Assembly: GCA_019233975.1 (NCBI GenBank)
Contig: JAFALY010000030.1
Location: forward strand, 65,550-129,549
Origin: Alphaproteobacteria bacterium
Lineage (GTDB): Bacteria; Pseudomonadota; Alphaproteobacteria; UBA9219
DNA: 64,000 nucleotides
Direction of reading: 5' to 3'
In this document: piece after piece, positions 21,249-31,464 of the stretch
How the letters are laid out: each line of letters starts with the position of its first letter
Position numbering within the stretch: the first letter of the stretch is position 1
The notes under the pieces: generated by a model
Told to the model about the DNA's origin: nothing
Databases searched by the model: none
What the model saw: only the letters and a program-made list of their open reading frames with translations
Program-made: the position numbers and the translations under genes

Positions 21249-21626
21249 TTATGCGTCCAGTTTTGGCGGCAATGACAGCATATTGGCAATCCATCCCATG
21301 CCGCCCAGGAAACCTGTTAATCCACCCTTTGTATTACTTGGCTTCATCATCAACCAAAACAGGGTATTTGCTCCCCATGACACGCCAACCGTCGAAACGC
21401 AGAACAACGCTGCGAACCATGCCAATGCAAGCCCCGGCCCGTTCAGGCCCGTCATCATGGCACCCAGCGGTGTCGTCATAGCAAGAGTAACCACACCGGC
21501 CAGGGCCGCCATCGCCGCCACCCCAAACAGCGCACACATGCCCCAGCCTCTGCCCGATTCATACTGGCCGTGCTGGGACGGCAAAGCTTGGCTTCTGTGA
21601 AAAGTTGAACGCGTCCTGCTATCCAT
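21249..21626 (-). CDS. small membrane protein with LPxxHGQYxxG motif (proximal copy)
   Basis: A 125-residue protein of no family I recognise. A basic N-terminus (MDSRTRSTFHRSQ) leads to LPSQHGQYESG (about residues 15-25), then two hydrophobic helices (about 30-55 and 64-92) and a Gly-rich, weakly amphipathic tail (GFLGGMGWIANMLSLPPKL). The motif, its distance from the first helix and the tail match the downstream protein at 20770-21204, although the rest differs. Reading is divergent from folD. Confidence 0.65.
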   Translation of the reverse strand: MDSRTRSTFHRSQALPSQHGQYESGRGWGMCALFGVAAMAALAGVVTLAMTTPLGAMMTGLNGPGLALAWFAALFCVSTVGVSWGANTLFWLMMKPSNTKGGLTGFLGGMGWIANMLSLPPKLDA

Positions 21627-28363: not shown

Positions 28364-28391
28364 AAAAGGGCGCACCCACGTGCGCCCTTTT
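28364..28391. terminator. bidirectional terminator between rcdA and rpmE
   Basis: AAAAGGGCGCAC / GTGCGCCCTTTT form a perfect 12-bp stem around a 4-base loop. Runs of A and T flank it, so it can end both the rightward rcdA and leftward rpmE transcripts. Confidence 0.93.
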
Positions 28392-28408: not shown

Positions 28409-28711
28409 TTAGGCCTTTTTCTTCTTGACCGTGGTGGTCACCTTGATCTTTTCAGCCGGAGCTGCGTCCGTAGCCGCAGCGCCTTCTTCCTTCTTGCCAG
28501 TGATACCGGCAAAGCGCTTGTTGAACTTCGCGAGCTGACCGCCGCGGTCCACCAGACGATGTTGTCCTGTCCAAGCCGGATGCGTTTTCGGATCAATATC
28601 CAGATGCAGCTTCGCGCCGGGCGCGCCATAGGTGCTGCGCGTCACAAACTGCGTGCCATCCGTCATGATGACAGTGATTTCGTGGTAATCGGGGTGCGTT
28701 TCGTTTTTCAT
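28409..28711 (-). CDS. rpmE: 50S ribosomal protein L31
   Basis: Ribosomal protein L31 at the subunit bridge region. The first 70 residues match the family ([48 protein letters not shown]). The CxxC zinc site of the C+ form is absent, as usual in alphaproteobacteria. The protein is 100 residues long because of an Ala/Glu segment and a Lys/Thr-rich tail ending VKKKKA, which probably contacts rRNA. It converges on rcdA with a shared terminator. Its upstream region holds an AT-rich inverted repeat at 28812-28833. Confidence 0.96.
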
Positions 28712-29270
28712 TGTTATCTACCTTCCTGGAACGCGGAGTTTTAAGGAACAGCGCGGCAAAATGCAAGCAAACTGCGCCCTTTGACCTCATTTTATTGGAT
28801 AAGCGGCACAAATATCAATTAAAACATTGATATATATGTATTTTTTTAATAACAATCTCCATATTACATATTGTTTGTTGCGGCGCAATAAATAGCAAGA
28901 ATATGTCTCAGACTGCTGTATGCACCAAAATAGGTTTCTGATATATCGCAAGCATATTCTAGTGCCGATTCCGTTTCCAAGCAGTCTCTCATCTACAAAC
29001 AGTGAAGCAGCCGTCTCGCCGTACCTGAAACTCTATCCAAAGGAGCTCCAGATGACGACAGCAGCCGCCTTTTTATATGTCGCGTCTCTTTCTGCATCCC
29101 TACCCTGCCCACCCTTTTTAGCCGGGCAGATATCCCATAAAACAAGACATAGATGGTGGCGGCTCGACTGAGCGCGCACTGCCTCTGACTTTCTGACGTC
29201 TTAAGCCTTTTTACCATCCCGAGCGTTGCCGCTTCTGGGCACGGGGGATCTTTGTCTGTGGAGTTATTTT
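28712..29270. other. AT-rich non-coding stretch with inverted repeats
   Basis: No convincing gene lies in this 559-base stretch. The left part (28790-28920) is distinctly A+T-rich and must hold the rpmE promoter. It contains the perfect inverted repeat ATATCAAT-N6-ATTGATAT (28812-28833) and a weaker one, AACAAT-N13-ATTGTT (28851-28875). An 83-codon frame at 28920-29171 has no ribosome site or recognisable composition. The right end carries the ribosome site of the HNH-motif gene. Confidence 0.5.
28812..28833. repeat. perfect inverted repeat ATATCAAT-N6-ATTGATAT
   Basis: Two 8-base arms, 6 bases apart, lie 101 bases upstream of the rpmE start. The 22-base dyad has the size of a dimeric repressor operator, but no regulator can be named. 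Confidence 0.5.
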
Positions 29271-29855
29271 ATGAGCAGTCATGAGCGTCGCAAATATCAA
29301 CGTTCCCCCCTCCTCTATCTACCGTTTTTGCATTGGTTTAAAGAAGCCCGTGATTTTGTTGGTTTCCTGACCGGCAATAATTGGGAATTGGAACATCTGG
29401 ACCCTGTCAGCAATGGCGGATTGGATGATGTGCATAATCTCGGCATCGTGCCGCGGTGGATTAATCAGAAAAAGGGCAATCTCATCCTTAAAGGCGCAGA
29501 ACTAAGCGCCTATATGGCCACCGAAGTCAAAATCCTGGATTACACTGCCAAGCTGGGGGAATTGTACGGCTGGCGTTTTCTGGGAGACGCGCCCCTGTGG
29601 GCACAAAGGTTTCAGGGATTCCCCCAACCACCTGGCACATCGCTCGGGCTATCGCTGCAAAATGCGATGGGTGGCGTAGCGCAAGTGTTTCAGCATGTGG
29701 CGCAGAGCCTGACACTGACTGTCACGCAATTCTTCGGTAGCATGTCACAAAGCATGGCAAGTGGCGTTTCTGCCGTGGGTCATGTTGCGGCCCCCGTTCT
29801 GACAGGCCTGTTGCATCATGGCTTGCCGATGCTGCTGCATCTGGTTTTGCTATAG
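29271..29855 (+). CDS. HNH-motif protein with hydrophobic C-terminus, unknown function
   Basis: A 194-residue protein from the ATG at 29271 (GGAG ribosome site 8 bases upstream). Residues 38-70 fit an HNH nuclease motif: ELEHLDPVSNGGLDDVHNLG, then VPRWINQKKGN, with H42, D44, P45, N56 and N65 in place and the closing KKGN. No zinc cysteines are present. The rest (about residues 120-194) is Gly/Ser/Ala/Val-rich and hydrophobic, with HVAAPVLTGLLHHGLPMLLH near the end. No immunity, secretion or phage gene is adjacent. Nuclease activity is inferred from the motif alone. Confidence 0.65.
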   Translation: MSSHERRKYQRSPLLYLPFLHWFKEARDFVGFLTGNNWELEHLDPVSNGGLDDVHNLGIVPRWINQKKGNLILKGAELSAYMATEVKILDYTAKLGELYGWRFLGDAPLWAQRFQGFPQPPGTSLGLSLQNAMGGVAQVFQHVAQSLTLTVTQFFGSMSQSMASGVSAVGHVAAPVLTGLLHHGLPMLLHLVLL

Positions 29856-29861
29856 CCACGT

Positions 29862-30410
29862 TTATACGACGTAGCTGACAGTGACGATTTCCAACGCCTC
29901 GCGCCCGGCGGGTGTGCGTACTTCGACAGTGTCCCCCACACGCGCCTTCATCAACGCACGTGCTATGGGTGAAAGCCAACTGATTTTACCCTGCGTCAAA
30001 TCCGCTTCATCCACGCCAACAATCGTCACGGTCTGTTCCGTGTCATCGGTGCGCACAAAGCAGACGGTCGCGCCAAAGAAAACCTGTTTCAGGTGTTGTT
30101 GCTTCGCGGGGTCAACAACTTCTGCCCCCTCTATACGCTTGGTTAGATAACGCACACGGCGGTCGATCTCGCGCAACCGCTTCTTGCCATAGATGTAGTC
30201 ACCGTTTTCAGATCTGTCACCGTTACCGGCGGCCCACGAAACAACCTCGACAATCTTGGGACGTTCTTCCGACATCAGATGCCGTAACTCCGCCTGCAAG
30301 GCAGCAAGCCCCGTTGGAGTCATGTAGTTTTTTTGTCCGGCAGGCAACGCGTCGGCTTCTTCAACATCCGCCTCGTCGCCATCGGTTTCTTTGGTGAAGG
30401 CTTTGGACAT
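29862..30410 (-). CDS. greB: transcription elongation factor GreB
   Basis: GreB enters the RNA polymerase secondary channel and stimulates cleavage of backtracked RNA. From the ATG at 30410 the protein is 182 residues. It has an N-terminal MSKAFTKETDGDEAD leader typical of GreB rather than GreA, a coiled coil whose tip GDRSENGDYIYGKKRLREID carries the acidic catalytic pair, and a C-terminal FKBP-like domain (GKISWLSPIARALMKARVGD). It lies 10 bases after rlmB on the same strand. Its stop is 6 bases from the convergent HNH-motif gene. Confidence 0.95.
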   Translation of the reverse strand: MSKAFTKETDGDEADVEEADALPAGQKNYMTPTGLAALQAELRHLMSEERPKIVEVVSWAAGNGDRSENGDYIYGKKRLREIDRRVRYLTKRIEGAEVVDPAKQQHLKQVFFGATVCFVRTDDTEQTVTIVGVDEADLTQGKISWLSPIARALMKARVGDTVEVRTPAGREALEIVTVSYVV

Positions 30411-30420
30411 AGGTGACAGC

Positions 30421-31464
30421 TTATTTTCTGGTCTTCTGCCGCTTCCATTCATAAAGCGCGACAGCGGCGGCATTAGAGACGTTCAGGCTGCCGATCTCAC
30501 CGCCTGTAGGCAGACGCGCCAGTTCATCACATTTCTTACGCGTCAGTTGGCGTAGGCCGTCGCCTTCTGCCCCCATGACCAGAACTGTACGACCCGTGAG
30601 ATCAAGCTCGGCCAGGTCACGTTCGCCTTCTTCGGCCAAACCGACACACCAGTATCCCGCCTGTTGCAATTCATCCATGGCACGCGCCAGATTGACGACA
30701 TGTACTTGGGGCACATGCTCCAAAGCGCCTGATGCAGTTTTCGCCAGTACGCCGGTTGTACCCGGCGCGTTACGCTCGGTCATAATGACGCCACCTGCGC
30801 CAAACGCCGCCGCTGAACGCAAAATCGCGCCGACATTGTGCGGGTCGGTTACCTGATCCAGCATTAACAAGGCATCCGGCGGTGTGTCGCCAGCGATTAA
30901 TTCACTTAACATCGGTTCATGCAGGGCATTGGCTTCCATCACGATGCCCTGATGCACGGTGCCGGGCGGCGTCAGACGATCCAATTCCTGCCGGTCCACC
31001 AGTTTGGCATCCGGACGTTTCAGCAACGCTTCGCGTCCATCGGCCATGGTTTGCTCCATGCTGGTGCGGCCTGCTTCTGTCAGCCACAAACGGTGGCAAC
31101 GACGCGCGGGGTTTAGCCATGCAGCGCGAACCGCATGCAAACCCCATATCAGGTTGCCCTCAACGCGACGCGGCTCTTCACGGCGTGCCTCATGGCGCGG
31201 TTCGGGCCGCACTGAACGTGCGGGTTTGGTCTTGGTATTATGGGATGCTTGCTGTGCCTTACGGTCGCCACCAGCAAATCTGCGGCCTTCGTAACCGCCT
31301 GTTGCGGCCTTATCACCATGACGCGCAGGTCGCTTGTCGCCACGGTGTTGTGGCTCGGCCTTTTTACCCTCACGCGCATCCTGACGACGGCCATAGGGTT
31401 TGGAATCAGCTTTTGCGGCACGTTGGGCAAAACGCCCGCGCCCGGATGAAGATTTGTGTTTCAT
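30421..31464 (-). CDS. rlmB: SpoU-family rRNA 2'-O-methyltransferase (RlmB type)
   Basis: A 347-residue SPOUT enzyme. RlmB methylates the 2'-O of G2251 in 23S rRNA using SAM. The three SpoU motifs are LDQVTDPHNVGAILRSAAAF, VLVMGAEGDGLRQL and IGSLNVSNAAAVALYEW. A substrate-binding domain precedes them (NLIWGLHAVRAAWLNPARR). The first 100 residues are an unusual basic, Arg/Lys/His/Gly/Ala-rich extension, probably disordered and RNA-binding. The ATG at 31464 is chosen over a frame extending to 31593 because the extra residues are not family-like. It probably forms an operon with greB. Confidence 0.92.
   Translation of the reverse strand: MKHKSSSGRGRFAQRAAKADSKPYGRRQDAREGKKAEPQHRGDKRPARHGDKAATGGYEGRRFAGGDRKAQQASHNTKTKPARSVRPEPRHEARREEPRRVEGNLIWGLHAVRAAWLNPARRCHRLWLTEAGRTSMEQTMADGREALLKRPDAKLVDRQELDRLTPPGTVHQGIVMEANALHEPMLSELIAGDTPPDALLMLDQVTDPHNVGAILRSAAAFGAGGVIMTERNAPGTTGVLAKTASGALEHVPQVHVVNLARAMDELQQAGYWCVGLAEEGERDLAELDLTGRTVLVMGAEGDGLRQLTRKKCDELARLPTGGEIGSLNVSNAAAVALYEWKRQKTRK

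Follow-up and report, generated by a model that had tools for sequence, protein, structure and literature searches.

An orphan gene, here called the HNH gene after the motif in its product, lies at positions 29271-29855 on the forward strand of the window, the whole 64,000-nucleotide stretch of DNA that was analysed. ORF calling and codon usage define a frame of 194 amino acids that opens with an ATG, and a Shine-Dalgarno sequence, GGAG, can be read directly 7 nt 5' of that start (29260-29263, forward strand). The gene has a synonymous-codon score of 0.14, compared with 0.22 +/- 0.10 for the genes of the window and -0.22 +/- 0.07 when synonymous codons are drawn at random, and each of its segments (1-75, 76-120 and 121-194) scores better in the annotated frame than in any other. 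With a good Shine-Dalgarno sequence and native codon use in all three parts, the gene is real; because every one of these parts, the tail included, has its best score in the translated frame, the tail belongs to that frame and is not a read-through artefact.

The flanks are housekeeping genes, as a sequence-only reading of the locus had stated. They were assigned by Pfam as rpmE (28409-28711) and a greA/greB-type gene (29862-30473), both on the reverse strand; the latter is convergent with the HNH gene, and six bases separate the two stop codons. Between rpmE and the HNH gene lies an intergenic gap (28712-29270) that has the 559 bases given in that reading; it had been described as A+T-rich, which holds only for about 28780-29000 (GC about 0.34), the remainder having a GC of about 0.5. 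The reported absence of immunity and phage neighbours is borne out: no ORF from 28712 to the Shine-Dalgarno sequence scores as coding, which removes a hidden immunity or antitoxin ORF as a candidate, and phage genes were not found nearby. No Rfam RNA above threshold was found in the gap, the scan having returned only tRNAs and sub-threshold matches (28364-28391, terminator region), and no excess of RNA structure was detected in 29000-29290, which is less structured than its shuffles. A 20-nt direct repeat, 85% identical, links the A+T-rich part of the gap (28799-28818) with the start of the HNH gene (29281-29300), and may be due to chance.

The HNH core, without zinc ligands, occupies residues 36-70 (29376-29480, forward strand) and comprises E41, H42, P45, G49-G50, N56, N65 and K68. 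Residues E41-H42, N56 and N65 follow the superfamily order D/E-H ... N ... N/H. The motif had previously been listed as H42, D44, P45, N56 and N65 with a closing KKGN, and all of these are present in the 194-residue protein; however, D44 falls at a variable position, and the motif acid is instead E41, in a stretch that reads WELEH here versus WEIDH. The protein has no cysteine at all, in agreement with the earlier remark that zinc cysteines are absent, and such a lack is ordinary in the HNH subgroup that it matches. That subgroup consists of small HNH proteins that stand alone and lack zinc cysteines; it came from a second GTDB scan and was the source of a family profile, which hhalign aligns with residues 36-70 at a probability of 95.1% (E 3e-8, 43% identity over 35 columns). 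Scored with the corresponding family HMM, the protein reaches 28.2 bits, whereas the best of 20,000 shuffles reaches 7.2 and the next-ranked ORF of the window 5.1. Across a 39-row HNH alignment, some rows of which were found through likeness to the protein itself, H42, P45, G49, G50, N56 and N65 are invariant; the loss of H42 and N65 from relatives, which the sequence-only reading had named as evidence against an HNH protein, is thus not seen.

Matches of the full-length protein to Pfam, NCBIfam and PHROGs all fall on residues 32-89, and each of the profiles concerned includes an HNH nuclease. These include Pfam HNH_4 (E 0.022, 15.2 bits against a cut-off of 22), NCBIfam NF040563, the HNH part of IscB (E 0.018, residues 37-71, 14.2 bits against a cut-off of 175), and seven PHROGs profiles down to E 0.006, six of them HNH endonucleases and one endonuclease VII. 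No single match from the three libraries passes a curated cut-off, a threshold set for annotation and not a criterion of structure, and no other Pfam domains were found in the protein.

The AF2 model built with the 39-row alignment has strands at 38-42 and 57-61 and a helix at 62-68, the beta-beta-alpha arrangement whose absence the sequence-only reading had also named as refuting, with a pLDDT of 88-92 over residues 41-70. It also places a helix before the core (residues 13-34, 29307-29372, forward strand), for which relatives were not found, and another after it (residues 75-99, 29493-29567, forward strand). The alignment rows were picked from HNH sequences and bias the model to that fold, so that the model is supportive and not independent proof; the single-sequence model is poor and all-helical (pLDDT 46) and has no beta-beta-alpha element. 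In the PDB, Foldseek gave only HNH nucleases at a probability above 0.5, mostly Cas9 HNH domains, plus the Geobacter nickase 4h9d, and the best-placed named matches among viral models are phage HNH proteins. None of the Foldseek matches reaches E 0.001, as expected because the core has only 35 residues. It is very probable that the protein contains an HNH fold.

The C-terminal part of the protein is a charge-free tail (residues 114-194, 29610-29852, forward strand) composed of an amphipathic helix at 124-166 and a terminal hydrophobic helix at 173-193, with a pLDDT of 58-81 from residue 131 onward. Its run of 81 residues free of Lys, Arg, Asp and Glu is the longest among 60 ORFs of the window, and shuffling the protein 20,000 times gave runs of 73 at most. 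The second longest in the window, 68 residues, belongs to a short membrane protein encoded at 21249-21626 on the reverse strand, which offers a genuine transmembrane counterpart to the tail. On a simple, position-independent insertion scale, the most hydrophobic 19-mer of the tail (KD 1.67) has an insertion sum of +4.7, close to that of the soluble RlmB (+4.66), whereas four membrane proteins of the window have KD values above 2.1 and sums from -0.07 to -1.84. No segment of the tail is as hydrophobic as the real transmembrane helices of these four proteins, and a transmembrane anchor was rejected, the tail falling short of the hydrophobicity of a membrane span that would mark an integral membrane nuclease. 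The helix at 124-166 is strongly amphipathic, with a mean hydrophobic moment of 0.355, which is reached by 5e-5 of shuffles and is best at 97 degrees per residue. Of the membrane-active or polymerising tail proposed earlier, a classic membrane span is therefore lost, but an uncharged amphipathic helix that would allow surface binding or self-association is retained. With a Ser/Thr/Gln/Gly face opposed to a Val/Phe/Leu/Met face, the modelled helix would suit either. Any role of the tail is read from its composition and helix geometry; no sequence relatives were found to show conservation of the tail. Sharing of the tail with other proteins of the genome was rejected, the search giving only a match at E 0.13 (L052) inside a predicted membrane protein.

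A full-length homologue was found in none of 96 related genomes, 385 alphaproteobacterial genomes and 33 genomes of the same order, and plasmids, phages, viral contigs and GTDB contigs gave matches to the HNH core only. Judged by these sequence searches, the protein is an orphan, so far unique among the genomes searched, as had been claimed. The greB-type loci of 13 genomes of the same family (L005-L017) have no rpmE, rlmB or HNH gene nearby, and no orthologue at the same site was recovered; since the greA/greB neighborhood is not conserved, there is no orthologous site for comparison. The HNH proteins fetched from the order are of other types, in most cases a single conserved protein that binds zinc, and all of them lack a tail of this kind.

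The same genome encodes a second HNH-like orphan of 265 amino acids with a hydrophobic C-terminus (P0002; G000:C4:62517-63314, reverse strand, also L054:1018-1815 and L138:6518-7315), whose gene sits among housekeeping genes. Its HNH-like stretch, 'DDHIKPKKFGG...NRQLLFHSINQEKG', is weak (PF01844 E 0.0083; hhalign 62.5%), and no relatives of it were found. When it was compared with the 194-residue protein (P0001), the observed score was matched by 13 of 2000 shuffles for the cores, 30 of 2000 for the tails and 3 of 2000 globally, which is no more than suggestive of paralogy.

On balance, these observations favor an orphan HNH nickase without zinc ligands whose uncharged tail acts through its hydrophobic face. 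Building on what was computed (the gene, its core and predicted fold, the amphipathic tail and the orphan status), we infer a scheme for catalysis, metal use, nicking and tail action. The protein would be a chromosomal, stand-alone HNH enzyme of phage or mobile-element type, most likely a metal-dependent DNA nickase, in which a single Mg or Mn ion would be bound by E41 and N65, and H42, oriented by N56, would act as the general base; that this putative nuclease is active is likely. The core is followed on its C-terminal side by a lineage-specific, uncharged helical tail. Its hydrophobic face could pair enzyme subunits, so that two nicks in opposite strands yield a double-strand break, or the tail could lie against the cytoplasmic membrane from the inside and confine the nuclease there; a role through this face is somewhat better supported than not. 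HNH cores are common; the unusual feature is that such a core carries an 81-residue uncharged tail in a gene without detectable relatives. Should the tail hold the nuclease at the membrane or gather it into clusters, it would be a simple means of confining a dangerous enzyme, and the small size of the protein allows direct testing.

The main rival is a domesticated or decaying phage or homing HNH gene, whose product binds DNA or is being lost and whose tail is an add-on without a defined job. This reading is compatible with the core: phage HNH proteins supply the closest profiles and folds, the gene is missing from every relative searched, and its native-looking codon use is that of an old arrival. 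It is nonetheless rather unlikely, given that the catalytic residues E41, H42, N56 and N65 are intact, as is the ORF, which keeps a good ribosome site, and that phage genes are absent nearby. That the HNH likeness arose by chance in an unrelated helical orphan is extremely improbable; the sub-threshold library matches and the single-sequence AF2 model without an HNH fold would fit such a protein, but none of the 20,000 shuffles comes near the HMM score, three independent libraries point to the same residues, and all six core residues are conserved.

A third possibility is a secreted antagonistic toxin, either a bacteriocin or an effector, with the HNH domain as its killing part and the uncharged tail as an aid to crossing or entering the target membrane. 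The uncharged amphipathic tail, the restriction of the orphan gene to its lineage and the second HNH-like orphan, whose C-terminus is hydrophobic, all speak for it. However, nuclease bacteriocins carry the nuclease at the C-terminus, the reverse of the domain order here, and neither the adjacent immunity gene nor the delivery system of an effector was found, as judged from the ORFs of the gap, scored for coding, and from the T6SS marker VipB and the T4SS marker VirB4, both absent. A PADLOC-DB search with the protein likewise gave no match to a known anti-phage defence protein. In the absence of an immunity ORF, VipB, VirB4 or a PADLOC match, a secreted toxin is less likely, and we consider it improbable. 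A more speculative extension, in which an HNH domain with an uncharged, curvature-sensing-like amphipathic tail, on membranes or in oligomers, would be a new architecture, and at least two such lineage-specific orphan nucleases of one genome, including the 265-residue protein, would form an undescribed module for self-defence or antagonism, is very doubtful.

The favored reading, a tailed HNH nickase, can be compared with several known systems. Cas9 and IscB (PF13395, NF040563) have the same HNH core and supply the top Foldseek matches and weak profile matches, but they comprise several hundred amino acids or more, whereas the 194-residue protein has no RuvC domain, bridge helix or guide-RNA parts. 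Membership in either family was rejected, the core (residues 37-71) being the sole match to NF040563 and other Pfam domains being absent. In another alphaproteobacterium (L035, L002), an HNH match lies inside a Cas9-like protein of about 1100 amino acids with a Cas1-like frame alongside. The conserved HNH endonuclease of the order, of 185-210 amino acids (e.g. L053, L143-L159), brings an HNH core into the same genomes, but it has zinc cysteines, is conserved order-wide and has no charge-free tail; the longest charge-free run among the HNH frames fetched from the order is 28 residues. Gmet_0936 from Geobacter (PDB 4h9d), a Mn-dependent HNH nickase that nicks DNA weakly in experiment (PMC3765158), is likewise a stand-alone HNH fold encoded by a chromosomal gene, but it has a four-Cys zinc site and no tail.

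The nearest subgroup is formed by stand-alone HNH proteins of about 100 amino acids without zinc cysteines, of the PF01844/PF13395 type (L034, L037, L040, L042, L043, L045, L046 and L058). In uncultured Alphaproteobacteria (L034/L041), a small HNH gene of this kind is preceded upstream by the gene of an XRE regulator and that of an ImmA/IrrE-like peptidase, an arrangement that is possibly a mobile or defence unit. Although the proteins of this subgroup stop soon after the core, have a different N-terminal part and lack the charge-free tail, they share with the 194-residue protein the WEIDH-PVS-GG-DD-NL-N-KG core and the lack of zinc cysteines, with 43% identity over the 35 aligned columns.
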